NCBI RefSeq assembly: GCF_040183065.1 | Contig: NC_091120.1 | Coordinates: forward strand, 71,512,708-71,576,707 | Source: Periplaneta americana | Taxonomy: Eukaryota; Arthropoda; Insecta; Blattodea; Blattidae | Length of the DNA: 64,000 nt | Direction: 5' to 3' | In this document: positions 5,369 to 53,776 of the stretch, one piece after another | How positions within the stretch are numbered: position 1 is the first letter of the stretch | Layout of the letters: each line of letters opens with the position of its first letter | The notes under the pieces: model-generated | What the model was told of the DNA's origin: nothing | What the model saw: only the letters and a program-made list of their open reading frames with translations | Databases searched by the model: none | Program-made: the position numbers and the translations under genes

Positions 5369-5503
5369 ATGAACGGAGAGCCTGCGGAACTTCTGATGCC
5401 AGCCGCTGGCTACATGGCTGCTGCTATCGTCCTTTTCACTATCGGATTCTTCGGCTTCTTCTGCAACCTGTTGGTCATCATACTTATGATCAGGGAGAAG
5501 CAG
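5369..5503 (+). CDS. Ciliary opsin (pteropsin/c-opsin type), exon 1: N-terminus and TM1
   Basis: This exon encodes 45 residues from ATG to a phase-0 donor (CAG|GTAAGC). The start has A at position -3. The extracellular N-terminus is very short (about 14 residues) and has no NxS/T glycosylation site. TM1 follows (about residues 14-42) and carries the class A GPCR asparagine in GFFGFFCNLLVIILM, then the loop IREKQ. Joined to the later exons it reads as a light-sensing, retinal-binding GPCR of the ciliary type known from insects as pteropsin. The family is thought to act in extraretinal brain photoreception; that role is general knowledge, not seen here. Foldback transposons lie on both sides (3344-5021 and 5696-6632). 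Confidence 0.85.
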
Positions 5504-5695
5504 GTAAGCCATAGCTTTACATCTAGCCCTCTTCATATTCAGTTCAGTTTTTCCTTGTGTTGAAATTTCCTTCATTGTTCCATTGATTGCATTTTTTTCG
5601 TAACAATCTGATAAGTCAGATGTCCAACACGGCCAAAGACTCAACACGGATTCTCGTGGACTGAGTTCCAACAAATGACAACACTACAGAGTTGT

Positions 5696-6632
5696 TTCCG
5701 ATCTCTGATAACGAATTTGAATGACATCATGTGCGTCAGGAATCACACCGACAGCTGAATTGCGGCGAGAAGTGACAGACCAGTAGTGAGTGATTTCATA
5801 GTCAGAGTGCACGGTGTATCACATAGCAATGCTCAAGAAAATCGAGCCTCTTTGGAAGTGGTACATAACAACCCTTTCCGATGCCAAGTACAGTTACACC
5901 GGGGACAGAACATCTAGAAGCTTGGAGACCGTTACTTTTATGCGGTCCGACCACCCCTTCCTACAGCACTAGCAGGTACGGTATCATTCATCTGCAAAAC
6001 ATTTTCTGAACGGAAGTTATTGTATTGTAAGAGCGCAGCCGGATCAGTAAAGTAGGTGGCCAACGTTTTCAGTTTGTATTGCAACGAACAATTCTGCTGT
6101 GTGTGGGCTCTTCTGTAGTGACGTCACTGAAGCCTCTAGTTGTTCTGTCCCCGGTGTACGTGAAAATCATAGGAGCCTGCAAAAAACGTGGTTTCATTAT
6201 TTCCAAGAAAGATATCTTGTGCGTACCTAATAAGACTGGCAAAGCTCGGATGGGATTAATTCCGTAATGGAAAAAGCAAGCAAATCCACCCCCCGTCACA
6301 AGTCGCCGCACCCCACGAGATGATACAAATTAATTCCATTCGAGCTTACCAATCTTATTAAGTACACAGAAGATGCCTTTCTTGGAAATAACGAAACCTC
6401 GTTTATTGCAGGCTTCTTTTATTTTCACTTAACTGTACTTGACATTGAAAAGGGTCGTAATGTACCCCTCCCAAAAAAGGCTCGATTTTCTTGGAAATTT
6501 CTGTTGTGTGTCGCCGTGCACTCTGTCTATGAGATCACTCACTACTGGTCTGTCACCTCGCACCACAGTTCAGCTGTCGTGTGACTCCTGATGCACATGA
6601 TGTCATTCAAATTCGTTACCAGAGATCGGGAA
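5696..6632. mobile_element. Second foldback element, in opsin intron 1
   Basis: The ends CCGATCTCTGATAACG and the complement of CGTTACCAGAGATCGG pair, and arms of about 370 bp can be traced (GAATGACATCATGTG, GCTCGATTTTCTTG-type and GATTTCATTATTTCC-AAG blocks). The loop is short, near 6267-6320. A smaller TA-flanked element interrupts the left arm. There is no coding capacity. It starts 192 bp after the exon 1 donor. Confidence 0.7.
5897..6156. mobile_element. TA-flanked MITE (CACCGGGGACAGAAC ends)
   Basis: This 260-bp unit begins CACCGGGGACAGAAC and ends GTTCTGTCCCCGGTG, with TA outside each end. Removing it together with one TA restores the left arm of the surrounding foldback element so that it matches the right arm (CAGTTA|CGTGAAAAT). 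The insertion and its order are therefore well defined. The TA duplication suggests a Tc1/mariner-superfamily enzyme. Confidence 0.75.
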
Positions 6633-7004
6633 GGATCCTGTATAACCCCAACCATCTCAAACGTCAATATTATATTTTTAAAACTGCAGCGTAAGAGCAT
6701 GTCTGCATAAATATTCCGCAGTTGTGCACCTGTACAGCATCTTGAAAACCACGTCTACAATGTCACTATGCTAATAACACAGCCAATACTCAAGTGCAGT
6801 CATGTTAGTATATTTCATGTGCACTCAATTTTGTTCTTTATTTTGGAAAATAAGTTACATTTTTCTTTTGTTTTTACGTTCGTGACAATGACAAAACCAT
6901 AATTACGAGAAGGAAACATGGAGATACTGACAATTATGGTACAAGTTTCGTGTGCAATTAAATATATTTATGAAGAAACTATTGATCATAAAGATGAAGA
7001 CAAT
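6633..7004. other. Unassigned opsin intron sequence
   Basis: Nothing recognisable on either strand; AT-rich. Confidence 0.3.
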
Positions 7005-7182
7005 AATTGAGGTGCTGGGTGCAATAACAGCTTAACTCTACTTAAGCCGTTATTCCGGCGATGGCATTTTAATAATCTTCCATGTCTTCTCTATCGACTG
7101 TAAAAGTTGTATTTCATTCCATTGACTCCAAATGGCAGGGGAGTCCATTATGTGAAGTACTGTGCTAAGATGAAAAGTTGTT

Positions 7183-7413
7183 CTGGCTGCGAAACCAGGT
7201 GGCCCGGGTTCGAATCCCGGTCGGGACAAGTTACCTGGTTGAGATTTTTTCCGGGGTTTTCCCTCAACCCAATACGAGCATATGCTGGGTAACTTTCGGT
7301 GCTGGACCACGGACTCATTTCACTGGCATTATCACCGTCATTTCATTCAGACGCTAAATAACCTAGATGTTGATACAGCGTCGTAAAATAGCCCAATAAA
7401 AGAAAGATAAAAA
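7183..7413 (+). mobile_element. SINE family 1, 5'-truncated copy
   Basis: The B box and body match the copy at 3509 closely (GGTTCGAATCCCGGTCGGGA, GTTACCTGGTTGAG), ending CCCAATAAAAGAAAG. The first part of the tRNA-like head is missing or unrecognisable. Confidence 0.85.
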
Positions 7414-8011
7414 TTTGAAAATTCGCAATACAAACATATGTTACACTCATGTTTTATACACCAGGGTCTTTGGCAGTATCATATACTTACAATACTGTTT
7501 TATAGCCATTCAGTCTTTCTGTAGGACATAATATACTAGCAGAGAAAAAACTTAACATAAAAAAATCCCTGTCGTCCTTGCTTTTAATTATCAAAGAAAG
7601 ATTATATTATTTCATTATTGAAATTCTTAAAACCAGAACATTCATGTTCTCTTCAAAATATTTTGGGTTGTGAACGAGTGCTAGATGAAAATCATCCTGA
7701 GAGTGAAATCAGTGATCATGAATATGAATATTTGACACTATAGTAGAAGAGTTTTCATCTGTAGCAGAGTTTCAGAATTGAACTTCTTAATACAATTCTG
7801 TTTTTCTTATTAGAAATTTAAAACATACGTTATTTTGTTCTTACAGTATATTTCCATAAAAATATGAGAGCTTATCGGCTAAAATTTTTATTGTGTATTA
7901 ATTTGATAAGCTGAAGTATTAATGTATGCACTATTATTTCTTATTGTTCGTTCAATAAAGTTCATGCATGTTAGTGAAATAACATTTTTATATTGATTTT
8001 AATGCCTAGGT

Positions 8012-8455
8012 TTACCGGTTGTACTGTATGTTTGTGAAACTTGGTCTCTCACTTTGAGAGAGGAACAGAGGTTAAGGCTGTTTGAGAATAAGGTGCTTAG
8101 GAAAATATTTGGGGCTAAGAGACATGAAGTTACAGGAGACTGGAGAAAGTTACATAATGCAGAACTGCATACATTTTATTCTTCACCTTACTTCATTAGG
8201 TACATTAAATCCAGACGTTTCAGATGAGCAGGGCATATAGCACGTATGGGAGAATTCATAAATGAGTATAGAGTGTTAGTTGGGAGGCCAGAGGGAAAAA
8301 TACCTTTGGGGAGGTCGAGCGTAGATAGGAGGATAATATTAAAATGAATTTGAGGGAAGTGAGATATGACTGAAGAGACTGGATTAATCTTGCATAGGGT
8401 AGGGACCAATTGCGGGTTTAGGTGAGAGGTTCCTTAAAAGCCACAAGTAAGTAAG
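8012..8455 (+). mobile_element. LINE family A, 3' end, with 14-bp target duplication
   Basis: It encodes the remnant of the reverse transcriptase C-terminus (VVLYVCETWSLTLREEQ, then KLHNAELHTFYSSP) and ends GGTTCCTTAAAAGCCAC followed by a TAAG repeat tail. TTTAATGCCTAGGT occurs on both sides (7998-8011 and 8456-8469). The frame has several stops. The longer copy is at 61096-62250. Confidence 0.85.
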
Positions 8456-9235
8456 TTTAATGCCTAGGTACTCTAATTTAAGAGGTCTCAGTCTTTCTAT
8501 GCAATAACCACTTACGTTTTCCACACTTTATTTACAAATATTTAAAAATGGGTTGTGTTTAAATTATAACTGATATTGCATTTGAATAATTTATACAGCC
8601 TAAAATATTGTACAGAACAAATGATGCGAGTATATGTACTATTAACATTTCTACATTGTTATAAAACTTTGACATTGTTTTTATCAAAACATGGGTTTTC
8701 AACTTAAGCTGTTATTACACCCAGCGCCTCAATTTATAAAAACAAAGTATTATTTTAACAGCAAAAATAAAAATGCACTCGAGTTAATTAATTATATTAT
8801 CTGGCGAAATTAGACAGTATAAAATCGCTGATTGAATTGGGACAGGATGGTGAAAACAAAGAATCTTAATTTAAACTTGAATTTAGAACGCCATCAGTCC
8901 ATCAGGAATGCCTCCTCATTTGTTAAAATTAAAACTAGTACAGTAGAGATCGATTATCCGAAACAATTGGGGACGGAGGGTGTTCAGATAACTGATTTTT
9001 CGGATAACCAATCATTTACGAAAACAATTTGTACCTGTGTCATAGGAGAAGTATGAAACAAAGAAACACTGATATTAAACACAAAACTGTACATATGGTA
9101 TATATTTTGTATCACACAAATAACACAGAGAACTGACTAGCCTAGTTTGAAAAGTTCAAAATGGCCATTAAAGTAGGCCTAAAATTTAGGAAAAGAAGTC
9201 CACATTTCTTTTTTTTTTTTTATTTTTTATTTTTT

Positions 9236-9243
9236 TTTTATTT

Positions 9244-9314
<71 letters not shown>

Positions 9315-9317
9315 TTT
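9236..9317. repeat. TTTA tetranucleotide microsatellite
   Basis: About 20 TTTA units in a nearly perfect run, preceded by an impure T-rich stretch. Confidence 0.95.
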
Positions 9318-9439
9318 TTTGCTTCAGAGCAGATATTAGTTTTTTTCCCGCTAAATGTCGCAAACAGCGCTAGCGAAACTTCTACATGACGCGAGCGCAA
9401 ATTTGAATTTGCCGATTGGAACGCTTTCGGTGAACCGAT

Positions 9440-9698
9440 TTTTTTTATTTTATTGGGTTATTTTACGACGCTGTATCAACATCTAGGTTATTTAGCGTCT
9501 GAATGAAATGAAGGTGACAATGCTGGTGAAATGAGTCCGGGGTCCAGCACCGAAAGTTACCCATCATTTGCTCGTATTGGGTTGAGGGAAAACCCCGGAA
9601 AAAACCTCAACCAGGTAACTTGCCCCGACCGGGATTCGAACCCGGGCCACCTGGTTTCGTGGTCAGACGCTCTGACCGTTACTCCACAGGTGTGGACC
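9440..9698 (-). mobile_element. SINE family 1, full copy
   Basis: The orientation is reversed: T-rich tail first, tRNA-like head (ending CCACAGGTGTGGAC on the + strand) last. Flanking CGGTGAACCGAT and CGGTTAACCGAT form a 12-bp target duplication with one mismatch. It is nested in the pogo-type MITE. Confidence 0.9.
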
Positions 9699-9962
9699 GG
9701 TTAACCGATGTTTCGGTTGAACGGTATTCGGATAATCAACGCTCTACTGTACTATTATATTAATTCGAAATGTAAATTTGAACATTGGATTATGTAATGG
9801 CAGAAGACTAATTACAACTGCTCTTCATGATAATTATATTGATGGAAAATTTTCAAGTGAAAGTTACAGAGGTAAAATCAAAGTGAGAATTAACGGAGGG
9901 GAAGCATATTTAAAAAAAAATTGGGAGGTTCTATGAATCGTTAGTGTTTTGAATTAATATTT

Positions 9963-9968
9963 TTTATT
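9963..9968 (-). terminator. Poly(A) signal of the gustatory receptor gene
   Basis: An AATAAA hexamer on the - strand lies about 63 bases past the receptor stop codon, a normal 3' UTR distance. It supports the gene ending here, though AATAAA is frequent by chance in AT-rich DNA. Confidence 0.5.
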
Positions 9969-10030
9969 GTTACAATAAATTGTTCATAATTTGAAAATAG
10001 AAATGTGGACCGCGCTGTTGAGATATATAG

Positions 10031-10774
10031 TCAGTTGAACTGAAACAGAATAACTACGTAGGTAGTGATGGCCCCCACGAGACTATGCAGAGTGGCCAAG
10101 TTCAGTGGAAAGACTCCTCTAGCGCTGAATTCCAGACCACAGTTCGCCACTTGCGCGGAGAAACGTCTCAGCTCTACATGCTCAACCCCTTGTAGAAGAA
10201 GCAATCGCTGCACCAATGCCAGGGTGTCCTCACCACGAGAGGATGCCAGATGACAGCACAGCATGACGGCGCCTGTTCGCAATCCGTGGAAAGCGAGCCA
10301 GCAGGCCAAGCAGAGAACCTGGGCCATACATGGAACGCAGTCCTTCAACGCCAGGGACAGGACTTTCATCAAGCGATAGCCTGTTGTAACGGCTGAGACG
10401 AAGACGAACATGGCCTCCATGAGTAGCGGCAGCCCGTACAAGGCGTTGACGAGTCTGGCCACTGCGTGCACTCGCATGTGAGTGGAACGAAGAGAGTGGA
10501 TATCGAGATCCACTGGAGCCATCCGCGGTGTTGGGTTTACTGCTGACAGCCCATGGATTGTGACTTTTGACGATCCTCTTAGGAAGCCATTCAGCATCTT
10601 CATCCAGCGGCCCACCAACCTCACGAAAGTCACAAATTGGATGACAGTGACAAGATTAACCAGATGTGCCAGGGACTCGTAGAAGATGAACACGTTTCTC
10701 TCAGTCAGAGAAACTTCCGTGTTAAAGTACAGCAAGACACCCAAACTGCTGCTCGCCAGTGAGAGCACCCCCAC
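10031..10774 (-). CDS. Insect gustatory receptor, exon 2 (TM3-TM7, TYxxxxxQF signature)
   Basis: The exon follows a TTTCTCAG acceptor in phase 0 and adds 247 codons, for a total of 369, normal for the family (about 350-450). It has five further hydrophobic segments and ends FPLNLATLHSLVGAITTYVV-ILFQFN. The TY(x5)QF signature in TM7 is diagnostic for insect Grs. The intron before it is about 1.7 kb and holds a pogo-like element and a MITE. All of TM3-TM7 is in one exon, without the phase-0 intron near TM7 that many insect Gr genes keep. No internal stop or frameshift was seen, so it is probably functional. The ligand class cannot be told from sequence alone. Confidence 0.87.
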   Translation of the reverse strand: MGVLSLASSSLGVLLYFNTEVSLTERNVFIFYESLAHLVNLVTVIQFVTFVRLVGRWMKMLNGFLRGSSKVTIHGLSAVNPTPRMAPVDLDIHSLRSTHMRVHAVARLVNALYGLPLLMEAMFVFVSAVTTGYRLMKVLSLALKDCVPCMAQVLCLACWLAFHGLRTGAVMLCCHLASSRGEDTLALVQRLLLLQGVEHVELRRFSAQVANCGLEFSARGVFPLNLATLHSLVGAITTYVVILFQFN

Positions 10775-10998
10775 CTGAGAAAGATCATAGACGGAATAAG
10801 CGTCCTCTAAGGTTCCACCAGTTATCTATTTTCGTACCAACTAAAAGTGGCCCACTTTGCTTATCATCAGACTTTCCTCTTTATATGCCCTAGTAGATTA
10901 CGTTATATATTAGGACCCCTCTTTTCAATATATTCTTTGAACGGATGAACGCAGAGTGAGACAACTGACCAAGAGACTTAGAGATCATAATATAAGTA

Positions 10999-11943
10999 AG
11001 GTACCTGAGGATATTAAGGCCCAGCATGTTATAAGGCCCACTAACTAGATTTTCCATTAGTTATACACTTTTGCAAAAGAGAGCAAGAGCTCTTAAGAGC
11101 TATTTCTTCTTGCATTCGAGTGAGATATAAAGAAATTAGGTTCCCGTTCTTGTTTGTAGCTGATTGATGGCAACAAGTTATGTGTGATTATTTCTGCTTT
11201 CTTCATAAAATTCTGCAAAATTTAAGTTGATATTTAATCGTTTTACAGTGTGTTATTAATATAATATTAAATGCACGTTATTGTGTAAACATTAAGAAAT
11301 TTGGGGTTACCGTGAAACTTTCACTAATGAGCATATGAGCATTCCATAAATTAAAATTGGCGCGAAGTAACAGAGCAGGAAATAAGGCCCATGAAATAAA
11401 TAAGTGGAAACGCCCACAAGTTCATAGAAGTCCCCGAACTATAAATTTCAAACTCTGAAGCACAATCTTTTTTTGCAAGAAATTAAACAAATGAAAGACT
11501 GACAATTCCTAATGCAGAAAGAGCATTGGATGAACCATCAATTTCAGGATTTATACACATCCAGGGGATGCGGATGTGTTCTGTCTGCGAAGAAAATTAT
11601 TGTAGATATGCATGTGTGTGTGTCTCTTGTGAATGTTGGGTGCACGATGAATGTGTAGGTCAAAAAAATTGAAGACTTTTTGTATGCCCAAATTGTGTTC
11701 AATACTTAAATTCTTTTTTGTGGGCTTTATTACGTGTCACAGCAGGATATAAGACCCAGTGACATGATGTTAATTTTCGTTGCTCACACCATTTATGTGT
11801 CTGTCTGAATATTTATTTGAAGTAAAATATTATAGGATAACTATAGAAGTATGCTATTCCATTATTTAAAAATTGCTAAAAGTCTCCATTTCAAAGAAAG
11901 AACGTCTCATTCCTTAGGTGGGCCTTATTACCCCCGGTTACCT
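10999..11943. mobile_element. pogo-like element with PHD-finger remnant, in the receptor intron
   Basis: The ends AGGTACCTGAGGATATTAAG and the complement of TAATACCCCC-type sequence share the AAGGCCCA block as inverted copies with TA outside. At about 11565-11690 (+) there is a broken zinc-finger reading MCSVCEENYCR, then CVSCECWVHDECVG, and after a one-base shift RLFVCPNCV. The spacing is that of the C-terminal PHD-like finger found in many arthropod pogo-family transposases. The catalytic domain is missing. Confidence 0.6.
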
Positions 11944-12007
11944 TATTTCAATTAATCTAAATAAATAATCCTAGATAAACACCTCGAATCTCTGTGCAAG
12001 ACATTTG

Positions 12008-12252
12008 AAGAGTCCACTGCAAGAATGATGGATGTCACTTTCTTGTCGAAAATGAACCAAGACTGTCAATGCATAGCTTAAGACATATAGAATGTACATA
12101 GAGAGTTATATGGCATTAACACTGATAGTCATTGTCCAGTAATGACCGGAAAATCACAGTTAAGCTTTGTGCGCTAAGCATTTCAAAATTTCAATTGTTT
12201 CTCCTGCAAAATGTATTCCAAATGACATCCATCATTCTTGCAGTGGACTCTT
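12008..12252. mobile_element. MITE with AAGAGTCCACTGCAAG ends, in the receptor intron
   Basis: A 245-bp unit whose first 30 bases (through GAATGATGGATGTCA) recur as the reverse complement at the right end. It is noncoding. The target duplication is not clear. Confidence 0.65.
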
Positions 12253-12501
12253 AATCTAGAATGAAATGAGGATAATGGGAAGTAAAATCAACTAAAAATT
12301 ACATGAACATGCGTTCTTGCTAGAGAATTTTGGGCAGGAGAAAAACTATATATGCTCCAAGCCTGTAGTCCACTTGTCTCACTCCGTTTGTCGCCATTTC
12401 ATTGAAGAATTCTAGAAAATTTGAAATGAAGCAGGATTTCGCGTTAATTTACATTTTTCTCTGTCTCAAAATCTTCCTTTCTTATTGTCACTATCATTGA
12501 C

Positions 12502-12867
12502 CTGCAGAAGAAGTTCATTCCTCAATCGGCTGCCATGTTCTCCGACGAACTGCCCATCCATGGTCTGGATCTCCGTCCATAAGGAATCAAAGACACGTCT
12601 GTTTAGCACTCCCAGGCAGAGAGATGTGGCACTGGTGCCGTATAACGCCGCCCTGGAGATTACGTCTACCAGGACAGTCGTGGACTTCTCGTTAGGATAC
12701 ACGGACCCCATGTAGTTGACCAGCTGGTGGATGAAGCCGGCTACTACAATCAACGACACCACACAGCTCCACAAAATGCTCGCCTGGGGCGCGAGACCTA
12801 GAAGCGCAGATGCCCAAAGAACTGGTCTCATGGCGGAGACGGTGCCTTGGGGTCGAAGCGGCGACAT
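12502..12867 (-). CDS. Insect gustatory receptor, exon 1 (N-terminal half)
   Basis: This exon encodes 122 residues beginning MSPLRPQGTVSAMRPVLW. The reading frame stays open upstream to a stop just before position 12918, but that stretch offers only a GTG, so the ATG at 12867 is preferred. The RPVLWASALLGLAPQ segment matches the start of TM1 in insect Gr proteins (a proline-rich entry followed by a GL-P turn). Two hydrophobic spans follow (about 28-55 and 75-100). The exon ends at CTGCAG|GTCAAT, a phase-0 donor weaker than consensus. Insect Grs are seven-pass ligand-gated channels with an inverted membrane topology in taste neurons. The gene is transcribed opposite to the opsin and lies wholly inside opsin intron 1. 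Confidence 0.8.
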
Positions 12868-13261
12868 TGCGGCTCGCAGAATGCGCTTACGTAAAGTGTC
12901 TCCAAATCCATAATCCACTGCTCTTTACGTAACAATCAATTCTGAATGAAGACTAATTCCAGCTTTTCCATTATGACGAAGCCCACTAATGAATGACGCT
13001 ACCGGATGCCTCGAAAACAGGTTAACTCCATTAGTTTTTGTTATAATCCTAATTTAAGACAGATATTATACGAAAAATAAATTAATCTGAGACAGATTTA
13101 TACTGCTTATTTTTTTCTTTTAATGTTGAATAACTCGGTTGAGTGGAAGAGAAGGCCTTACGGCCTTAAATCTGTCAGGAAAAGTAAAGCTACTGTTACT
13201 ACTGTTGCTGCTCTACTGTTATTTTCGAATAACACTAATGCAACTCCGTCTTCTTTTCAAT
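12868..13261. other. Upstream region of the gustatory receptor gene
   Basis: About 390 bp between the receptor start and the next SINE. An obvious TATA box or initiator could not be assigned with confidence. It would hold the promoter if the gene has no further 5' exon. Confidence 0.3.
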
Positions 13262-16170: not shown

Positions 16171-16194
16171 TACCTTTTCTCCTGACTCACAATG

Positions 16195-19482: not shown

Positions 19483-19536
<54 letters not shown>

Positions 19537-20507: not shown

Positions 20508-21851
20508 TAGCGTGCAAATTAATCCGAAAACGACATATTTTACATTTTCTGTCATTGTTGGCCTTACAGCTGCTCATACCGCTTTAATTGACATCTGAAG
20601 TACGTGTAATTCCATTGTTGAAGGTCTGCAGTTATTATTTTCTTTATAATATGTGACATTTTGCCTGTCGTTTTGTACTTATAAGCATTTCAGTTGTGTT
20701 GAAGACTTAATACTGCAATCCTGTGTACATTCTGTCGTCTTCACAAATGGATACAACTCTACGAAAACGGTCTAAAATTATAACATTAGCAGAGCATTCT
20801 TCTATGACACAGAGGCAAATTGCTGCAGAATGTCACATCGGTTTGGCTACTGTTAATTCGATCATAAAACGATACAGGGAGACTGGATCCATCACACCCC
20901 AGAAAAAAGGAAACTGTGGCCGGAAGAGGAAGACTTCACCTGCAGATGATCGTTTAATTGTCAGGAAAAGTTAATTAAATCCTACACTAACTGCTGTCGA
21001 CTTAACCCGCGAGTTAATGGCTACCACTGGGGCGAATATTCACGTCACCACAGTGCGGCGTAGGCTTTTGGAAGCTGGACGAAGGGCTCGTAAGCCTATT
21101 AAGAAGCAATTGCTAACCCCTGTTATGTGCAAAAAACGCTTAATGTGGGCAAAATTACATCAACACTGGACAGTGAATGAATGGAAGAACGTACTTTTTT
21201 CCGATGAGTCTCATTTCGAGGTCCACGGCCACCGTGTTCCTTACGTACTGAAAGGATCCGAAAAAGTAATAGCAGATCATCTCCAACAAGCACCCAAATA
21301 CCCCCCTAAAGTAATGTTTTGGGGTTGTTTTACTCATGAAGGGCCTGGAGCATTAATATCTATCAAGGGAATGATGAATTCTGACAAATATATTCACTTA
21401 TTGGAAACCAGAATCGTACCCCAGCTGCAAAAATCATTTCCGGATGGCAGAGGTGTGTTCCAACAAGACCTGGCACCATGCCATACGTCTCGAAAAACTA
21501 CAGAATTCTTCAACAAGAAGAATATTCAGGTACTCCCCTGGCCAGGCAACTCACGCGACATCAACCCCATTGAGAACTTGTGGTCAATTTGCAAAAGAAG
21601 AATGCAAAAAATGGATTGTTCTACAAAGGAAAGATGATTTCTGCCCTCATTGGTGTATGGTTTCGCGATGAAGAAATGAAGAATATTTGTGGGAAATTAG
21701 TGGAATCCATGCCAAATCGTCTCAGAGCTGTTATTAGGAACAAGGAAGGCCACATATATTACTGAGGTATATCTTAGATCCTTTTTTTTAATCCCGTTTG
21801 AGCGTTTTTGCATAAGTAATTACGTTGTTCGGATTAATTTGCACGCTACTG
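20505..21851 (+). mobile_element. Tc1-like transposon, nearly full length
   Basis: Terminal inverted repeats CAGTAGCGTGCAAATTAATC begin and end the 1347-bp element, with TA on both sides. The transposase gene inside is described separately. The two ends match over at least 24 bases, suggesting a fairly recent insertion. Confidence 0.9.
20747..21765 (+). pseudogene. Tc1-type DD34E transposase, two lesions
   Basis: The ATG begins MDTTLRKRSKIITLAEH, an N-terminal paired-like helix-turn-helix with TQRQIAAECHIGLATVNSII. The catalytic acids appear in FSDESHFEVHG, QQDLAPCHTS and NPIENLW; the last two are 34 residues apart, as in Tc1 enzymes (DD34E). One in-frame TAA (20972-20974) separates the two DNA-binding halves, and a one-base frameshift near 21625 moves the last 45 codons (ALIGVWFRDEEMKNI to the end) out of frame. 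Otherwise the frame is open, about 340 codons in all, the normal Tc1 length. Confidence 0.9.
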
Positions 21852-22804: not shown

Positions 22805-24078
22805 CGAGGGTCACTCCAAAAAGTAATGCACAACATTTTTTAAATTTATCTTTTATTCTACACCTTTGCAATTTGTGGAGGTCATAGATAAGACTTTCCC
22901 GCTTGTATTCATTTTTAATTTAAGTCGTTCTCGTTAGTGGCTCCATGATAGCACTCCTTCAAGATGGTTGCTGTACTTGACATTCGTCAGAAGCAACGTG
23001 CTGTTATCGAGTTCCTGTGCTGCGAAAACGAGACTGTGGGAAAAATTCACAAGAGGTTGGAAAAGGTGTATGGAGATGCAGCTGTCGATCGCAGTATGGT
23101 TAGTCGGTGGGCAAGTAGATTATCTGGTGAAAGAGAACACGCCAATATTCAGGATACTCCTCGCAGCGGCAGACACTGCACTGCACGACGTCCTGACAAT
23201 GTGCAGCGTTTTGACAACATGGTTGTGGCTGACAAACGAGTAACAGTGAAAGAATTGTCACCCCAAGGTTTGTGCCAGGTGGGTTCCGAGGATGTTGACA
23301 GAAGCTCACAAAGAAACCCGAAAAATAGTGTTCAGGGAAATTTTGGACAAGTATGAGAATGGTGGAGATGACTTTATTGCAAGAATTGTAAAAGGAGATG
23401 AAACATGGCTGCACCATTTTCAACCGGAGACAAAGAGGCAGACAATGGAGTGGGATCATGCTAATTCACCAAAGAAAAATAAATTCAAAACTGCGCCTTC
23501 AGCAGAAAAAGTTATGGCTGCTGTGTTTTACAATTCAGAAGGGCTCTTGCTTGTGGACATCATGCCACACGGAACCACCATTAATTCTGACGTGTATGTG
23601 GCAACTGTCAAGAAACTTCAAGCTCGACTGAGCTGTGTTCGACCACATCGGGAGAAGCAGGATGTTCTGCTATTGCACGACAACGCCCGGTCACATGTCA
23701 GTCACAAGATCACAGACCAGATCAGAAAACTTGGATGGGCAACACTGAAACATCCGCCTTACAGTCCTGATCTGGCACCATGCGATTATCATCTCTTTAG
23801 TTAACTGAAGGAATCTCTTCGCGGAACGAGTTTGAAGATGACGACTCCCTCGTGCACGCTGCTAAAGAGTGGCTCAAACGTGGTGGTGCAGACTTTTATC
23901 GTGTAGATATATAGGCCCTTGTTCCAATGTGGAGTAAGGCAGTTGAAAGAAACAGGGATTATTTGTAAAAGTGACATTTTGTCCCTAAAGGATGTATCTA
24001 CGTTCTGTGAAAATAGTTTAGCTATAGGATAAAAATGTAATTTTCAAATATTGTGCATTACTTTCGGAGTGACCTTCG
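22805..24078 (+). mobile_element. mariner transposon, about 1.27 kb
   Basis: The ends CGAGGGTCACTCCAAAAAGT and the complement ACTTTCGGAGTGACCTTCG are inverted. TA precedes the left end; the right flank is altered. It lies inside the pogo-like element and is younger than it. Confidence 0.85.
22964..23925 (+). pseudogene. mariner DD34D transposase, frameshifted
   Basis: The first part (MVAVLDIRQKQRAVIEFLCC to about 23285) is the two-part helix-turn-helix domain with KIHKRLEKVYGDAAVDRS. A frameshift near 23270-23300 leads to the catalytic part: GDETWLHHF, LLHDNARSH and YSPDLAPCDYHLF, the last two aspartates 34 residues apart (DD34D). A TAA replaces a codon after HLFS (23803), and a further shift precedes the C-terminal GGADFYRVDI region. 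The WVPHxL linker seen in intact mariners is lost around the first shift. Confidence 0.88.
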
Positions 24079-31601: not shown

Positions 31602-32071
31602 ATACGATGAAAGAGTAATGGAACGGAGAAAAATTCTCTCCGGCGCCGGGGTTTGAACCTGGTTTTCAGTTCTACGTGCTGACGCTTTATCCACTAAGCC
31701 ACACCGGATTCCACCCCGGCGTCGGAAGAATCGTCTCAGTTTTAAGTTCCAACTCTTGGGTTCCCTCTAGTGGCCGCCCTCTGCACTAAGTCATAGATAT
31801 CTATGAACCTAGGACCGAAGTCCACACAAGTGCTGAGGTGCACTCGTAATGAGTGACTAGTTGGCCGGGATCCGACGGAATAAGCGCCGTCTTAAATCAC
31901 GAAGTGATTTACGCATATCATATATATTATTATAATGTACCGAAGTACATATGATATTTCCATGCAGAAATTCTGCGTTATCATACCGTTCCATTACTCT
32001 TTCATCGTATGATAACGCAGAATATCTGCATGGAAATATCTTATATACTTCGGTACATTATAATAATATAT
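31602..32071. mobile_element. Palindromic tRNA-like element, 135 bp before opsin exon 2
   Basis: ATACGATGAAAGAGTAATGG and the next five bases recur as the exact reverse complement at 31986-32010. A second pair of arms, about 62 bp (TATAATGTACCGAAGTA-AT, TTTCCATGCAGA, GCGTTATCATA), faces each other on either side of that right copy. Around 31635-31715 the - strand resembles a tRNA (GGTTTGAACCTGG near the T arm, AAGC and CCACTAAGCC in D-arm position). It looks like one tRNA-bearing element plus a partial inverted copy. Confidence 0.55.
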
Positions 32072-32206: not shown

Positions 32207-32366
32207 CTGTGGACGCCGCTCAACGTGGTGCTGTTCAATCTCGTATGCTCGGACTTCTCTGTGTCCATCCTGGGGAACCCCTTGACGCTGACGGCCGCCC
32301 TCGCCCGACGATGGATCTTTGGCCGCACGATGTGCGTTATCTACGGTTTCTTCATGTCACTTTTAG
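32207..32366 (+). CDS. Ciliary opsin, exon 2: TM2, extracellular loop 1 and start of TM3
   Basis: The exon lies between a TTTCAG acceptor and a G|GTACTG donor and keeps the frame of exon 1 (in at phase 0, out at phase 1). It begins LWTPLNVVLFNLVCSD, the TM2 NLxxxD motif with the conserved aspartate. Next come SILGNPLTLTAAL, the loop RRWIFG, and TM3 starting with the disulphide cysteine in TMCVIYGFFMSLLG. Three residues after that cysteine, where vertebrate opsins carry the Glu113 counterion, there is a tyrosine, as is usual in invertebrate opsins. The wording SDFSVSILGNP is typical of arthropod c-opsins rather than the rhabdomeric visual opsins. The exon is clearly more GC-rich than its surroundings. 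Confidence 0.92.
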
Positions 32367-39330: not shown

Positions 39331-40399
39331 TACTTGGTGTATCCCTCAACTTATTCAGGATTTACGAATGGTGTTTTTCATATATGACCAGTGATGTTTA
39401 TTAATTCTTGTTCTTGAATGCCAATGCGAGTCATATTTGAAAGTGCTGTGCATCGACTGGAGTGGTTTGTAATTTTCTGATTTTTGACGTCCAGACCAGT
39501 GCAGTTTGAAATGTTGGCAAACAAAGAAACAAATGCTAGGGTAGTGATAAAAATAAACAAATGCTAGGGACGCGATATAATTAAACAAATGCTAGAGACG
39601 CGATAAAATTGTTCGATAAGCAGCCATGATTAGTTGAAAGACGTCCTTTCGTACCGTTTTATTGGTCAAAAGTAGTGTGACGTAGTGTGACTCTGAAACA
39701 TGATACAGTGTATCTTATTATCACCAGGTGAACAAACAACTTTAATCTAATAGTGTATCTTATATGTGGTACATAACATTAAATTCATAATTGTTTTCAA
39801 GAAAATTTTTCATTTCTATTTTAATAACACTCAGGAAGTTCGTATCGTAATTCTTCCTGATGTTGAACTTGAACTGTAACGCAACCGAATGCATAGTAGC
39901 ACAGCAGCACGAGACGTCAACAGACCAGCAAAACAAACAAGTATTGACGGCTGGTAAATACACTTGTATTTCAATGAGCATTTAACGAAGAATAATCTGG
40001 GGAAAAATAAACGTATTACACACTCTTATTTGGATAATGATTTAATAAAATATGAGTTTACTTTATGCAATCATGCACAATATTAACATCACGTAAATAA
40101 TACAATAATAACAGAATATCTCACTTTGTTCAAAACCTGAACTATTAATATAAATTAATAATATTCTTCAAACTATTCACGACTCTACACAGCTCCACAG
40201 AATGCCACTATGCGTTGTTTATGTTAAATACGTATCATCTGCAGTGAGAGGGAGCAGGGCGAGGCGCGGGTGAAACCTATACTCCACGCTGTACTCAACT
40301 AAAATCTACTGTTTTGGTACGAACTTCGTACCTATGGTTTTAACCTTTACTACAACGTTACTAACAACCGGCTCAGAGGTTGTAGGTATATATATATAG
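39331..40399 (+). repeat. Intron DNA with a three-copy 34-bp tandem repeat
   Basis: At about 39522-39612, the unit AAACAAATGCTAGGGACGCG with ATAAAATT occurs three times with small changes. The rest of the stretch shows no supported feature. Confidence 0.6.
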
Positions 40400-41597
40400 A
40401 GGGATTAGTATCCTCAACACATGTTATAAGATATTTAGTAGGATTTTAAATGAAAAATTAAAAAAACATGCTGAAACTTTCCTTCTGGAGTGTCAAAATG
40501 GCTTTAGAAAAGGAAGATCATGTGTAGATCCATTATTTAGTATCAAACTATTGTTGGAAAAAAGAAGAGAATTTAATTTAGAAACCCATATAGCTTTTAT
40601 TGATTTTGTGAAAGCTTTTGATAAAGTCCGAAGAGACCTTTTATTCGACATATTACAAGAAAAAAATATTCCAAATTTGCTATTCCAAAATATAATAGAA
40701 ATCTACACGGACAGCAAAATAAGTGTCAAAATAAATAACTGTATATCCGAAAGAAAATTAGTTAATAATGGAGTTCGACAAGGTTGTCCACTATCACCGA
40801 CTTTATTTAATATTTATATAAATGAAATTATTTTAAAATGGAACCAAATCTACACATCAGGAATCAAAATAACCAGTGCTCTAACATTAAATACCTTACT
40901 CTATGCCGATGATCAAGTCATAATTTCCAATTCAGAGGATAATTTACAAAGAGGATTGTATACATTAAATGAAATATTAAAAGATTTTGGGATGGAAATT
41001 TCAGCACAAAAATCAAAAGTAATGGCATTTTTAGGACAAGACCCAGTGAGAAGTAAGATAATACACAATAACCAATGCCTCGAACAAGTGCAAAATTTCA
41101 ATTATCTGGGTTGTGAAATATCTTATCAAAATGAAAAAGATGTGAACAAGAAAATTACCAAATTTACACAAATTCTAGGAATAATAAACAATACATTAAA
41201 AGCTAAATTAGTACAAAACTCTACAAGAATAAAAATATATAATACACTAGCATTACCCACCCTTCTATACGGAAGCGAGATTTGGACATTAAAGAAAAAA
41301 GACATGAACAGAATCAAAGCAACGGAAATGAAATTTTTCAGGAGAACAGCAGGATATACTCTTTTAGACCGAAAAAGGAATGAAGAAATTTTAGAACAAT
41401 TAGAAGTAGAGTCAGTAGAAGAAAAAATCACCAGATACAAATTCAATTGGCTAGATCATGTAAGAAGAATGGAAAATTCAAGAATCCCAAAAATTATGAT
41501 GCAATATAAACCTAGAGGACATCGTCGACCAGGAAGACCGTTAAGAAGACTGCTAGATGGGGCCGAAACAGGTCTACAGAGGCCTAATTCGTGAAGG
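40400..41597 (+). mobile_element. LINE family B with long open reverse transcriptase frame
   Basis: The reading frame is open from about 40400 to the stop at 41592, close to 400 codons: TCYKIFSRILNEKL, NGFRKGRSCVDPL, motif A AFIDFVKAFDKV, motif B VRQGCPLSPTLFNIYINEI, motif C LLYADDQVI, then FNYLGCEISY, LYGSEIWTLKKKD and RYKFNWLDHVRRMENSRIPK, with the GRPLRR tail typical of RTE-like and related LINEs. The palm motifs are intact, but the 5' endonuclease region is missing, so this is a 5'-truncated but little-decayed copy. It ends in an ATG repeat. Confidence 0.85.
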
Positions 41598-41680: not shown

Positions 41681-41684
<4 letters not shown>

Positions 41685-42867: not shown

Positions 42868-44990
42868 TTGAGAATTTACGAGGTGATTTTTTGAATTTCA
42901 AAAGATGATATTGATAATTGTTTTAAAAAATGATATGTAAATTTTGGTAAGGAACTCCGAGCACCAAAAAATAAACCTGTCACTGACCAATTGAAGAGAG
43001 GGATGTTATACTTGGCACTAAGGTAGGGAATACAAGGTTCATAAATGGCCCTCTTTTCCTGATCAACCTGATGAGCTTGGTTTAGATTTCTCTCCATGCG
43101 TATAGTTGGATCTATGATAATAGCCTTTTGTTGTTGCCTGTTTATTGCTATTATATCCGCTCTTCTGTGAGAGTCGTCTTCAGAAATACAGTGGACCTCT
43201 TCATGAACTTCCCAACCCTTGTTCCGAAGAAGACAGGCGATAGCTCCACGGACTCTATGATGCCTGTTGTTACGCAATAACTCTCCTTTCCGACAAAAGC
43301 CCAACACGTGGCCAAGAGTTCCTGTCTCGTTGCAGCCTGGTTGACGGCAATGGGTCGTGCTGAAAGCTCTGCCAGGAAAGGAGCGCACTGCAATAAGGTT
43401 GCAGGACATCTTGATTGCATTAATATATTCTGAAGACGACAAATTCCTTTTGGTGCTGACCCATGAATTGGCTCTTGAATATTCTTCATAGATGACTACA
43501 CCTTTCCCCTTATGAGGTAACTGACACCAGGAGTCAAACGATCTCTTTCGCAATTCATCACGCAGATGTATTCCAGTTGTTCGAGGTGTTATGTTGGCTT
43601 CAGGGATTTTCAGGCGCTTGAGAGCAGTTTTCTTCTCCTCTTCAAGATTCCTGACAAGAAGGAGATGATCATCACTGACTTGTGAGAGTCGTTTACAGAT
43701 GTTAAAATGCTGAATATTAGTTTCCCATTCGGCCTTAATAAGTCCTAGGCCACGTACTTTTTTTAGAAGAATATAGCATGTCTTTAGGTGTATCATCAGG
43801 AAGAGATATCATTTCTTTGACAGCACTTCTAATTACTTTATCTAGATCTTTAAGGAAGCTGTCAGGGAGCTGATCAAGTGGAGCACATTGCAAAGGATAG
43901 ATGAGCCCAGGCCATATATATTCATTCACAATCTTCAATTTCTGATCAGGCTTCAGTAATGGAGTTTGTGTAAGATTGTTAAGATCACTTGTTAAATTTG
44001 TTATAATTTTATTTTTATCTAAGAATATTTTGTCGCGAAAATCAACTCCCAGATATCGAATTGTTTCAGATTTATCATCAGTACTATGTATAGCTGATCC
44101 ATGAAGTGAAATGAGAGCTCCTTTAGTTAAAACACCTCTTTCGAGAATTATACACTTGCTTTTAATAGTGTTAATTTCAAGACCTAGTTCATCTAATTTA
44201 CTTTCAGCCATATCAATGAGAGCTGTTGCTGACTTTTCATCTTTTCCAACGAGAGCCAAATCATCAGCAAATGCGAAAGCACTTAGGTTTTGAAGATCAT
44301 TGGAAAGTGTAAAACCATATTGGTTGCTAATTTCATGATCTGTTAAATTTTCAAGAACGCAATTCAGTGCCAAATTGAAAAGTATTGGAGACAATGGAGA
44401 ACCTTGAGTAACGCCTCCCACTCTTTCATTGGATGAAAACTTATATGATCACTTTGTGTATTTTCTGGATAATATATTACATCTTCACTCTGTTGGAAAA
44501 CTTGTATAGGATCCTGATTGTTTTTTTATTGGGTTATTTTACGACGCTGTATCAACATCTAGGTTATTTAGCGTCTGAATGATATGAAGGTGATAATGCC
44601 GGTGAAATGAGTCCGGGGTCCATCACCGAAAGTTACCCAGCATTTGCTCGTATTGGGTTGAGGGAAAACCCCGGAAAAAACCTCAACCAGGTAACTTGCC
44701 CCGGCCCGGATTCGAACCCGGGCCACCTGGTTTCGCGGCCAGACGCGCTGACCGTTACTCCACAGGTGTGGACTCCTGATTGTTAACTACTACAGAATTT
44801 CGATTTGTTGTTTCGAGGGGTTTTTGCAAACTCTGTTGATATGTAGCTGAAGTGTCAGTAATGATTTTGTTGGGTGAAATATTGCTTGGGTTATTAAAAT
44901 CTGATGAATTAGAAAATGCTGTGGTATGCCTATGTGCCAGTTTTTTCTCCTCTCTTCTGGATGGGCTTTACCCATATGTATATTTATTCC
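42868..44990 (-). mobile_element. R2-like LINE with restriction-like endonuclease, broken
   Basis: On the - strand, 44421-43735 reads GGVTQGSPLSPILFNLALN (RT motif B) and FAFADDLALVGKDEKSATA (FADD catalytic motif). After a shift near 43760, 43796-42876 gives the C-terminal part: a zinc knuckle CRQPGCNETGTLGHVLGFC (C-x4-C-x7-H-x4-C) and an endonuclease segment RRADIIAINRQQQKAIIIDP with a PD-(D/E)xK-like pattern. These are hallmarks of the R2 group. Upstream of motif B, the fingers and early palm are missing, and a SINE interrupts the N-terminal remnant. It is not in ribosomal DNA. Confidence 0.8.
44523..44773 (-). mobile_element. SINE family 1, full copy inside the R2-like LINE
   Basis: A complete family member in reverse orientation. 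TCCTGATTGTT flanks both sides (44512-44522 and 44774-44784), an exact 11-bp target duplication. Taking it out rejoins the R2-like frame around NNQD. Confidence 0.92.
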
Positions 44991-45600: not shown

Positions 45601-45644
45601 CCCTCAAAAGCAAGCAAGCAGATCAAAACAATACCATTCAGCTC

Positions 45645-46615: not shown

Positions 46616-46623
46616 CTCATTAC

Positions 46624-48819
<2,196 letters not shown>

Positions 48820-48987
48820 CTCATTACACATAGGATAGTTACGTCTTGAAAAATTATAGAAACGAAAGTTTGTATGCTATTTCATTTTTTGATTTAATGC
48901 CAACTATCAGGGCCCGTTTACCCCACTGTGCGTCGCCTACTTAGAATTCGTGACGTAGAAAGCGGAAGCTGAAGAAGAGTTAGGGTC

Positions 48988-49193
48988 TAAGCCTTGGTTT
49001 TTCTGAACCGACGCATGCGACGCGAGGTGCGAGGCCCGCCTCGCACAAATTCGGACTACAGCTGCGAGAAGCGAGATCTGCGCACCTCGCAACTATAGAA
49101 ACCACTCACTATCTCTCGTGTACTCCGGATTTGTGCGATGCGGGCCTCGCACCTCGCAACTCGCATGCGTCGGTTCAGAAAAACCAAGGCTTA
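48988..49193. mobile_element. MITE with TAAGCCTTGGTTTTTCTG ends, full copy
   Basis: The left TAAGCCTTGGTTTTTCTGAA and its exact complement at the right end give arms of about 90 bp with the GC-rich words GCGAGGTGCGAGGCCCGC and CACTCACTATCTCT in between. It is noncoding and related to the fragment at 2059. Confidence 0.8.
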
Positions 49194-50721
49194 ATTAATC
49201 CTTTTCTACAATGAATCATCTGAAACAAGGTTACTTCATCGCTCTATGTCAGCTGGACAGGAGCATACACTTCTACTGTACTCCAACGAGGAGATAAAAC
49301 GTGAAAGGAATGTGCTTACTATTGCGTCATCTATTGGAGCGAAGTAGATAGATAATATTAGAGTTATAACGTCAGTTTAAAAATCATGCGCTTTCCTGCA
49401 TATGTTATTTCCTGTATGTAGGGATTAAAAGACCAGGAGATTAACAGTGATCTAATTTTGTAACTAGGGTAGTATAAAAATGTGTATATCAGTGTTATGG
49501 TTTGTGCTTTGAGAGGTAGGCAATAGAGATAAGAGTACCCACGTGTGTGACCTTATGACATCTTATGACATCAACATTCATTCACAGCATCACCCCGCTT
49601 CGTTTCATTCCCTGGAGACTTTCTCGGGGTTGGAGTACAGTAGTTGTTGGCACGCAGCATTGGAGAAGATAGGAGGGAGAGGATAATCAGACTGCTTAAC
49701 ATTGAACGAACAAGTGATGGCTAATGAGAGGGAGATCATGCCTTACCCCTCCACTCTGCTTGTGAATTTAGGGTTTGACTCGCGAGTCACGAAATACATT
49801 TCACTGTTGTAAACAATTCCAACATATTGAGATGATTCTGAGAGATTACAGTGGAAAGGTGGTTATGAATGGCAACAAATTATATTTTGATTAATAACAA
49901 ATATTGTAATGTTACTGGAATGATCGAGCTAATTGTTGCACACCATGTAAGAGAAACAGATATAGGCTTAATGTACTTAAATTTTGTAAAAACTTCAGCA
50001 TACCCACGTAATAGCAATTGTAAAGTCTACATTACAACTATATAATATAGATCATAACAATAATCGATAAAAGGAATATGTATATATTTTATAATGATGA
50101 AAACAAGCAGACAACTTTAACCACTATCCTGTCAACCCAAACAAATAATGACATTGGATCTTAAAAGGGTGATCTAATTTATAACGTATTTTAACCGAAT
50201 GTTAATTGAAAAAATAATTTTAACCAATAATAAATATTAAAAATATATATTCCTTGATATTTTATACCAATGTAGACAACAGAAAAAATATTATTATAGG
50301 AGAACATTCTTATATTTTCAGTAATATAAGTTGTGTTCATAAATATTAATGTAACTACTAAATAGACCTGAAGATAACTAATTATATTTGAAAACGTTAG
50401 CCTAAATAAGTATGAAAACTTAAAGTATGACTATATTTAAGCCTTATATATAAACTTTGATAAGTTATAGACTGAAACTTTCCAACAGATGCTATCTTTG
50501 AAATCAAGTAACTTATCGGAAAATATAACTGCTCAAGAAAGATACCACATTTTCTGCATCATAGATTCTAAAAAGTTTATTACCGTGAAATTTAAAAATC
50601 ATCTTTAGTAGAATCAGAATAGTTTCCCTTTACTCTTACATCGTAAGCTTAAAAGAAAAAAATAGCTTGTTTCATCGCGATAATTTAATTTTAATCAATA
50701 CCGGCAAATCAAGATACGATT
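49194..50721. other. Unassigned intron DNA
   Basis: About 1.5 kb without a recognisable gene or repeat; the last kilobase is strongly AT-rich. Confidence 0.3.
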
Positions 50722-50735
50722 ACTTGAATAGTTTA

Positions 50736-51081
50736 TATAATCCGTGGCGCTACAGCCCGTGAAGGGCCTAGACCGACCAGCCGGCTGCTGGCCTCACGCC
50801 CACATGCCGAAGCAGAGGTGGACGATCATCCAACCAGAATGGAGGTATCGTGTGGTTAGCACGATGATCCCCCCCAGCCGTTATAGCTGGTATTCGCAAC
50901 CGGATTTCGCTATCTATCGTAGCTCCCCAAGTGCATCACGATGCTGGGTGGGCACCGGTCCCATACACTGGCCGAAATTTCATGAAAAAATTTCTTCCCC
51001 CATGAGGAATCGAACCAGCGCGCATTCCGTAACGCGAGTCCTAGGCGGGATGCCTTAGACCACGACGCCACGGCGCGGGAC
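50736..51081 (-). mobile_element. tRNA-derived SINE, family 4, 14-bp target duplication
   Basis: On the - strand the head is GTCCCGCGCCGTGGCGTCGT with A box TGGTCTAAGGC and B box GGTTCGATTCC, then a body with GAAATTTCGGCCAGTGTATG and GTGCCCACCCAGCATCGTG. ACTTGAATAGTTTA flanks it exactly (50722-50735, 51082-51095). The perfect duplication suggests a young insertion. Confidence 0.9.
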
Positions 51082-51095
51082 ACTTGAATAGTTTA

Positions 51096-52021
51096 ACTAT
51101 CAAAATTTATTACTCCAAACGAGACCTTGTGGGTGATGATTATGACAATTATTAAATTTAAACAACTCTAGTCATTATACGATTTAGTGCGAAAATTATA
51201 CCAGCATTTATGGTAATGCCTTAGATATCACTATTAATTATAAATATCTTCTCATACTTATTTTCATAGCGAATCTTTCCATTAAAATTTAAATACAGCT
51301 CACTATTTTGCGAAACATCAATCAACTTTCACTCTCAAGTAGCACATAATTAGTTTCTTTTAATGCTCTTAAATTTGAGAGCACCTCTTAACTTGCTTAA
51401 GCGCTGCCTGTGCTTTTATAATGATTTTAAGACTTCAAATAGTAATTAGTTTAATTCCTTGCAAGTCTCTGCGTTATTATATCTAATGAATTAATTAAAA
51501 TCTTATGCATAGTGAACATAAGGAATTTCTCATGTAGGATGAGTTGAAAAATAAATTAGTTGTGTCTACAAGATTATAATTTCACTTCTCCTATAGAAAG
51601 CGTCCATGTAATTAAATCGATTCCCTCCAAATTAGATACACTTCAAAGGCAGCTAAGAATATGTCAACACTGTAAGTTTCGCTTTCACAATGTAATAACA
51701 CATATTTAATATATGAATAAGGATTTTCCTGTTAATCTTTACTTTAGAATTTTTTTTATAATAACCTGCGTTTCTTTTTATCTTTTCTTGTTTTTATGTT
51801 ATATCGTTTCATTAAAAAAATATCTTATACAGAATAGAGTACTAACCTGTTATCCTATGGCGATTGCAACCCTGATAAATTATAGCTGTGCAACTTACGT
51901 TAGTAGAGAATAATTTTTCTTCTGCCACCGTTTTACCATTTATTCACGGTTATTCATAATCGAAGACATTCAATCTTCAGCAGATAAAGAACGAAATAAA
52001 TATCGAGTACAAATAAGCATA
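51096..52021. other. Unassigned AT-rich intron DNA
   Basis: No supported feature. Confidence 0.3.
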
Positions 52022-52740
52022 GAGAGTTTCCAAAAAATAAACGGCTTTACTTCGGGAATGTGTTCCTCATACGCAAACAATGAAAATACTAGTTCATACG
52101 AGTATGTGCACAGATTCGGAAATGGTTGGTTTTCAAGTTATAAACTTTCAAAACACGTGGTAAGCGGAATGACTTCAGGTAATCTGTGACACTTTAGTTC
52201 TTTAGAGTAGATGAATTATTCAAAATGTCCACCCCCTGCCTCAATACAGACAGCACATTGACGTCTTATGGCTCCATATTCTTGGCGTGTCTGTTATTGT
52301 CTCATAACCTGCTACAATTCGACTGTCGAAAGTGACATATCTGCACCGGAGACGAATACACCAGTTGCAGTGCTTTTAAATGTCCCCAAAAATAGAAATC
52401 CAAGAGGGTTTAAACCAGGAAATTCGAAGGTACCCTGGTTGGTGGATCAGTGGAGGTGAACAAATTGTCTGGTCTTCACGCTCACCTGATTTAAACCCTT
52501 TGGATTTTTACTTGTGGGATTATTTAGAAGCACTGGTGTAATCGTCTCCTGTGGCAGATGTGACTACTCTCCGTAACTGTGTTTGATTGCCGTACGAAGT
52601 TCTTCGCCCGACTGTACCCGTACGGAAGCGAGCAGTGCCTCAGAAACTGGTTGCAAATGCATTGTGTTTACATTTCTTTCAAGTTTAGGTATACTTGTTG
52701 CGCATTTAACGGTACCGACTAGAGTAATGAAACCTGAGCT
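52022..52740. mobile_element. Decayed element with two facing transposase fragments
   Basis: The left edge TTTCCAAAAAATAAACGGC, then ATGTGTTCCTCATACGCAAA, resembles the ends of the element at 24704. Near 52440-52545 the + strand reads EQIVWSSRSPDLNPLDFYLW, a transposase C-terminal motif. From about 52430 back to 52200 the - strand carries a second copy (LNPLGFLFLGTFKS, ending CAVCIEAGGGHFE). The copies face away from a common centre. No right end was fixed. Confidence 0.55.
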
Positions 52741-53580
52741 ATATTGTTCTCACCAAGCTTAGACGACCTCACTCACACCATTCTGCTGACTCGTGCCTTA
52801 TCCAAAACATAATAAAACATACGGTGCATGCCTGTTAGTTATGCAGCGTTGTCACATTATGACTCTGAATTAGCCCAGCCGCTGGGCTGAGGCAAGTACG
52901 ATGCTTTTTTTTAAACAGAGAAGTTATATCCCGTCGCCCTAATTTCCGGCAGCCAATCACGTTGCAGGTCGGCTACATTTAAACGTGTGCGTCTTGTGAT
53001 TCGCTGATGAAGATGTAAAGCATTTCCTAAGGCTGGATAAATACTTAATATACAAATCGCCCGCTATTTTAGCTCTTTCGTTGGCGTTCGCAGAAAGCAC
53101 ACGAGGACGTTATTTGCCGCTCAATTATTTGCTGAATTACAGTGCGTTTGATTTATTATCATAGGAGCTACGACATGATAATGTTTAACGGTGTGGCAAA
53201 TAGATCCCTCGTCTGATAGCTCGGCAACGAAAGAACGAAAATGGCGAACGATACTACCTATCTAGACTTTATAGAGTATTGACTTCCTAAGACGTAAGCA
53301 AAGAGGAGGAGTCACGCCGGAAATAACAGCGTCGCGACTATAGTAGTTGTCTCTTGCGAAGGATAAGCTGCGCCTGAGGCCTTCTATGTTTGACAACACT
53401 GTTATAAAGCAGATGCGGCCAACTGCATAACATAAACATCGAGAGCATGTTGATATGACTTCTTTGACGTCTTTCCTCTGAGCTGGGGCTATCTAACTTT
53501 GGCGAATACAATAGTTATGATGTCTTGTGACTACTATGAGTAAGTGTGAACTTTCTTAACCAATCATTGCATCCCTGCAG
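52741..53580. other. Unassigned end of opsin intron 2
   Basis: Moderately GC-rich but without recognised repeat or coding sequence. The splice acceptor tract ATTGCATCCCTGCAG closes it. Confidence 0.35.
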
Positions 53581-53776
53581 GCATTGTGTCCATCACGACG
53601 CTGACGGCACTAAGCTTCGAGCGGTACGTGATGATCAGCCGTCCGCTATCCCGGCACAACCTGAACAGACGCGGTGCGTGCGTGCTGGTGATCGGCATCT
53701 GGGCCTACTCGATATGCCTCACCGCGCCGCCACTCGTGGGCTGGGGCGACTACGTCCACGAAGCCGCTAACATCAG
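53581..53776 (+). CDS. Ciliary opsin, exon 3: TM3 end, ERY motif, TM4 and extracellular loop 2
   Basis: The acceptor is CCCTGCAG. The first bases complete a glycine codon split with exon 2, giving LLG-IVSITTLTALSFERYV. ERY is the G-protein-coupling (D/E)RY motif at the end of TM3. TM4 follows (ACVLVIGIWAYSICLTAPP), then GWGDYVHEAANI. The glutamate in this loop aligns with Glu181 of bovine rhodopsin, the ancestral counterion used by most invertebrate opsins. The donor AG|GTAAAG leaves phase 2, fitting a continuation NIS. No continuation (TM5-TM7, Lys296) was recognised downstream in the window, so the gene is cut by the window edge. A transposon-like terminal repeat starts only 12 bp into the next intron. 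Confidence 0.92.

Follow-up and report, generated by a model that had tools for sequence, protein, structure and literature searches.

A gene of the gustatory receptor (Gr) family lies within the first coding intron of an opsin gene of the cockroach Periplaneta americana, on the opposite strand. This arrangement is confirmed in the stretch of DNA analysed here (hereafter the window), which comprises 64,000 nucleotides at C4:71512708-71576707 of a genome of 3,231,669,367 bases in 91 contigs. The whole Gr coding sequence (positions 10031-12867, minus strand) is contained in opsin intron 1 (5504-32206, plus strand), as an antisense nested pair demands, and the five opsin exons located and the exons of the Gr show no mutual overlap. 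We consider it very probable that these are two independent genes forming an ordinary antisense nested pair, a by-product of long introns and of a large number of Grs. The locus provides a precisely mapped case of a chemoreceptor gene inside a photoreceptor gene, and is probably just an ordinary new example of a known arrangement.

The nested gustatory receptor gene

An earlier note on this DNA had described a two-exon Gr gene on the opposite strand between opsin exons 1 and 2, with an intact frame of 369 codons and a TYxxxxxQF end. All of this was upheld when the coordinates were re-derived. The exons (12867-12502 and 10774-10031, minus strand) are joined in phase 0 with GT-AG ends and yield 369 open codons. 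Exon 1 contributes 122 codons and its last bases, CAG, are followed by the donor GTCAAT; exon 2 contributes 247 codons and the stop, and between them lies a phase-0 intron of 1,727 bp (10775-12501), which the nearest paralog does not have. The predicted protein matches Pfam family 7tm_7 (PF08395) with E=8.6e-26 and 91.5 bits, against a cut-off of 26.6, and the match covers practically the whole protein (residues 14-368 of 369). Its C-terminus, TTYVVILFQFN followed by the stop, contains the TYhhhhhQF pattern characteristic of the family as TYVVILFQF; this pattern was matched five times in 264 kb (the window and 100 kb on each side), and the four other matches had no Gr-like open frame when inspected by eye. 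Among solved sequences the closest are gustatory receptors of insects, several of which bear the name Gr43a (best E=1.4e-9). At the sequence level, the Pfam match and the matches to solved insect Grs thus confirm that the nested gene belongs to the gustatory receptor family.

A stop-free run of this length would be expected by chance with a probability of about 5e-12 under the composition of the window with independent bases, and of 6e-7 under the gene's own composition. The G+C content is 54% in the Gr coding exons, compared to 35% in the Gr intron. An AATAAA resembling a poly-A signal lies 62 bases 3' of the Gr stop (9963-9968, minus strand), and is the sole AATAAA or ATTAAA within the 300 bases searched past it. 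The genome search returned 114 match rows, two of which are the Gr itself. Scoring extended to 111 of the 586 candidates, so all counts from this search are lower bounds. Among the candidates scored, the Gr has one near-identical genomic place. No further Gr genes turned up in the 264 kb, whether by tblastn (E up to 5) or by scanning for the motif; both approaches are insensitive to very divergent Grs, and the other weak matches were judged to be due to chance. A stem-loop upstream of the Gr had no RNA-family match, the sole nearby hit being an 11-bit tRNA-arm-like sequence, and a bacterial-type promoter scan of the upstream region was set aside as uninformative for an insect.

The host opsin gene

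The opsin exons beginning at 5369, 32207 and 53581 had previously been said to join in frame, and exact GT-AG sites with phases 0, 1 and 2 bear this out. Exon 1 (5369-5503, plus strand, as are all opsin exons) carries the start codon and the first transmembrane segment (TM1), with an in-frame TGA 12 bases 5' of the ATG, and ends at the phase-0 donor GTAAGC. It is followed by intron 1, the 26,703-bp host of the Gr. Exon 2 (32207-32366; acceptor TTTCAG, phase-1 donor GTACTG) encodes TM2-TM3, and after intron 2 (32367-53580; 21,214 bp) exon 3 (53581-53776; acceptor CTGCAG, phase-2 donor GTAAAG) encodes the end of TM3, the ERY motif and TM4. Together these exons make up 163 codons, with a match to Pfam 7tm_1 at E=2.2e-29. 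Among the 150 of 176 candidates that were scored, each has one near-identical place in the genome, and the match ranking next by E-value shows 33% identity.

Intron 3 (18,510 bp) occupies the rest of the window (53777-64000) and continues beyond it. In the 100 kb downstream of the window we located exons 4 and 5 on the same strand, at 72287-72419 and 75137-75367 in window numbering extended past 64000 (8.3 and 11.1 kb beyond the window end), separated by an intron 4 of 2,717 bp. The five exons are collinear and phase-compatible, and form a stop-free frame of 855 bases (285 codons) spanning 70 kb; the 7tm_1 match of the encoded protein improves to E=2.7e-52. The opsin model is thus extended to at least 70 kb and five located exons, two of them outside the window, and runs through residue 312 in bovine numbering. 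A C-terminal exon was not found: scanning about 65 kb for phase-0 acceptors with F/L/Y-R/K/H after them gave four candidates, none of them convincing.

Compared with solved sequences, the 285-codon core scored 170.9 bits against bovine rhodopsin (1f88_A), 152.4 against the squid protein and 119.2 against a jumping-spider opsin. The retinal-binding lysine is present: K269 of the joined frame corresponds to bovine K296 in TM7, in the motif AKSSICYNPVIY. In bovine numbering E181, C110, C187, ERY and NPxxY are also kept, and position 113 is Y. The gene had been called a ciliary opsin (c-opsin) in the earlier note and indeed looks ciliary-type, bovine rhodopsins, which are vertebrate ciliary opsins, being its best solved matches and K296 being present; we assign it to the c-opsins (pteropsin/Opn3-like) with moderate assurance. 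In insects, c-opsin is described as one of five widespread opsin types, and the few studies cited there point to expression in the brain and a function outside vision (PMC4824169); mosquito Opn3 is reported to be expressed in eyes (PMC9441228). A retinal study of P. americana itself reports three opsins, pGO1, pGO2 and pUVO (PMC4513288).

The Gr intron and its origin

Among the candidates scored, the best non-self match to the Gr (C3:159781489-159782658) is 33% identical and forms a single open frame of 419 codons. In a direct BLASTP alignment with this paralog (31% identical, 123/399 columns) there is no gap at the exon junction, and the N-terminal start region is kept as well. Codon 122, after which the nested Gr is interrupted, is crossed by 18 of the 112 non-self rows, all in a single frame, and one of the 18 contains an in-frame stop. 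The nested gene departs from the lack of coding introns that marks a mostly intronless Gr clade, and in this comparison, made without a tree, it is not assigned to that clade: its frame is broken after codon 122 by the phase-0 GT-AG interruption of 1,727 bp. Since the nearest genomic relative is uninterrupted, this intron was probably gained, and the locus supplies a Gr that carries its own intron despite having intronless relatives.

Two repeats make up about 70% of the interruption. One, of about 250 bp (12006-12252, minus strand), has 33-nt inverted repeats at its ends and was found at 39 other scored places with 95-98% identity; the other, of about 950 bp (10997-11946, minus strand), was found at 39 other scored places with 87-93% identity. 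Scoring covered the best 40 candidates of each search, and these identities thus describe the closest copies. Each repeat lies more than 200 bases from the nearest splice junction. They were consequently rejected as the cause of the interruption, although a rarer element could be missed among the best 40 candidates, and most likely they enlarged an intron that already existed.

Expected frequency of Gr nesting

Nested genes constitute about 6% of the genes of Drosophila melanogaster; large introns hold most of them, and antisense orientation is frequent (PMC3786989), and 567 opposite-strand nested coding pairs are reported in Caenorhabditis elegans (PMC12274878). For P. americana 522 Grs and 16,750 coding genes have been reported, along with a median intron of 3 kb, which is half that of the locust and above that of other sequenced insects. 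Taking 16,750 genes with five introns of 3 kb each, where five per gene is assumed and the clustering of Grs is ignored, introns would cover roughly 8% of the genome and about 41 of the 522 Grs would be intronic by chance. Because tens of Grs are expected in introns under these rough assumptions, the Gr/opsin pair is one of many potentially striking pairs. In a literature search for an earlier report of a Gr nested in an opsin, the passages of PMC4244043 and PMC9840275 on nesting or strand did not concern a nested Gr. The earlier note called the pairing unusual and inferred that opposite transcription could give mutual interference or coordinated tissue expression. Neither a need for a special explanation nor either of these effects has so far gained support, though no search aimed at shared regulatory elements was made. 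Antisense nesting in large introns is common in animals and the Gr family of this species is very large; at present the locus seems to be a matter of base rates in a large genome.

Other sequences in the opsin introns

Ten of the 45 long open frames listed were scanned; five had matches in transposase or reverse-transcriptase families, one matched DUF659, and four had no match. In intron 1, transposase frames at 20975-21637 and 23250-23804 (both plus strand) are Tc3-like and mariner-like, respectively. Just inside the same intron, ACACCGGGGACAGAACA was read by eye at about 5895-5911, with an inverted copy some 230 bases on at 6141-6157, which suggests a small inverted-repeat element. A tRNA-Tyr(GTA)-like sequence (31638-31708, minus strand, 40 bits) lies some 500 bases ahead of opsin exon 2 and may be a tRNA-derived repeat. 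Intron 2 holds an open frame of 402 amino acids (aa) at 40386-41594 (plus strand) with an RVT_1 match of E=3.8e-39, and a frame of 530 aa at 46861-48453 (minus strand) with a DUF659 match of E=2.7e-12. The latter is probably a transposase of the hAT type, to which DUF659 is linked, or else a gene that arose from such a transposase. More RVT_1 pieces occur at 43735-44448 (minus strand) and 61277-61627 (plus strand).

Proposed origin and alternative explanations

What we infer from the sequence about expression, splicing, promoters, cell types, the lack of coupling and the arrival of the Gr may be put as follows. A Gr akin to the intronless Grs would have come into the 26.7-kb opsin intron, in a repeat-rich genome of 3.2 Gb, most likely by duplication or transposition, or else the intron may have grown around it. 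The two genes would have separate promoters, that of the opsin to the left of 5369 and that of the Gr to the right of 12867. Polymerase transcribing the opsin would traverse the Gr, which would then be removed with the spliced-out intron 1, while the Gr transcript would head toward opsin exon 1 and probably end near 9.9 kb, about 4.4 kb short of that exon. The Gr product would be a chemoreceptor subunit in taste-type cells, and that of the opsin a light-sensing G protein-coupled receptor of the brain or eye. The layout would have no function of its own, save for a possible weak interference where both genes are active.

Several points weigh against an ordinary nested pair of working genes. Its splicing, promoters and cell types are deduced from DNA and not from transcripts. 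The chance of this particular pair is low, with 0.011 Grs expected in the opsin gene itself, a figure tempered by the fact that no host gene had been named beforehand; and should the nesting turn out to be ancient and retained throughout Blattodea, constraint would gain in likelihood. In addition, the Gr donor GTCAAT is weak in relation to the donor consensus. This last point also bears on the possibility that the Gr was silenced recently, a frame of the intronless class having been split by an insertion and the 1,727-bp piece not being truly spliced. Codon 122 is read through in a single frame by 18 of the 112 non-self rows, so the interruption looks peculiar to the nested Gr, and most of it consists of the two repeats. 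The junction, however, has exact GT-AG ends in phase 0 and a gap-free protein alignment, the repeats end too far from the junctions to have caused the interruption (with the reservation about rarer elements made above), and the 369 codons are stop-free with a G+C content of the coding type. The open frame in itself is a weak argument, because after 5% neutral substitution a frame would still be free of stops with a probability of 0.16. On balance we regard a recently dead Gr as unlikely. That the Gr or opsin exon 1 was misplaced in the assembly appears so improbable as to be nearly negligible. Most interdigitated or opposite-strand exons were assumed to be assembly artefacts in a Diabrotica genome paper, but here the 264 kb around the locus contain no N bases, the assembly (PAMFEO1_priV1; 3.23 Gb in 91 scaffolds) is reported to combine HiFi and Hi-C data with a contig N50 of 42.4 Mb (PMC12774602), and the opsin exons are collinear and compatible in phase, the first three at a single near-identical place each.

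A functional coupling of the two genes, in which opsin transcription is damped or diverted by that of the Gr on the opposite strand, or shared enhancers place both receptors in the same sensory cells, would, if shown, make the locus well suited to tests of how one sense might control another through antisense transcription. The antisense layout that it presupposes is real, and precedents exist: in C. elegans the host polq-1 has a short form that is induced by its nested gene ceh-10, and it is not rare for opposite-strand pairs to be coexpressed (PMC12274878); in Drosophila the antisense nested pair tim2/2mit, whose host acts in light synchronisation, has been kept in 21 Drosophila species and the honey bee (PMC3786989). 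The same sources also supply evidence to the contrary, as the mean coexpression of opposite-strand nested pairs in C. elegans is below that of neighbouring non-nested pairs, although some are highly coexpressed (PMC12274878), and the adult functions of tim2 and 2mit are reported to be non-overlapping (PMC3786989). Furthermore, there is no overlap between the Gr and any of the five opsin exons located. Coupling is accordingly judged quite unlikely. In a more specific version the Gr would be a Gr28b/LITE-1-like sensor responding to light or to chemicals that light produces, and shared regulation would have it expressed together with the c-opsin in one set of photoreceptor cells in the brain. LITE-1 is a light sensor of this kind, and light sensing by Gr28b is stated in PMC6175461. 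One locus would then house two extra-ocular light sensors with antisense control between them, an outcome that we hold to be very improbable. An ordinary antisense nested pair thus remains the preferred reading.

Comparison with known systems

The positions at which the opsin coding sequence is interrupted (bovine numbering) are 67, 121 in phase 1, 186 in phase 2, 232 in phase 0 and 312 in phase 0. In human RHO, going by its exon lengths, the ends fall at 121 in phase 1, 177 in phase 2, 232 in phase 0 and 312 in phase 0. Three of the five ends (those at 121, 232 and 312) would therefore coincide in position and phase, whereas the phase-2 end lies at 186 where RHO has 177, and the one at 67 has no counterpart in RHO. 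Set beside the insect c-opsins of the pteropsin/Opn3 type, the cockroach gene has K296, E181, ERY, C110, C187 and NPxxY, and it has three introns of 18-27 kb.

With the mostly intronless Gr clade of Blattella germanica (PMC6175461) the nested Gr shares the 7tm_7 domain, the TYhhhhhQF end and an uninterrupted nearest paralog; set against that clade, it is without a close paralog. Its lone phase-0 intron also differs from the intron patterns described for Blattella Grs, namely three 3' phase-0 introns, 1-0-1-0-0-0 and 0-2-0-1 (PMC6175461). As for the nesting itself, tim2/2mit of Drosophila and ceh-10/polq-1 of C. elegans resemble the present pair in that a large intron of the host encloses the entire guest gene, which is encoded on the other strand; the cockroach locus differs from both in that host and guest alike are sensory receptors, and in being known from sequence alone.

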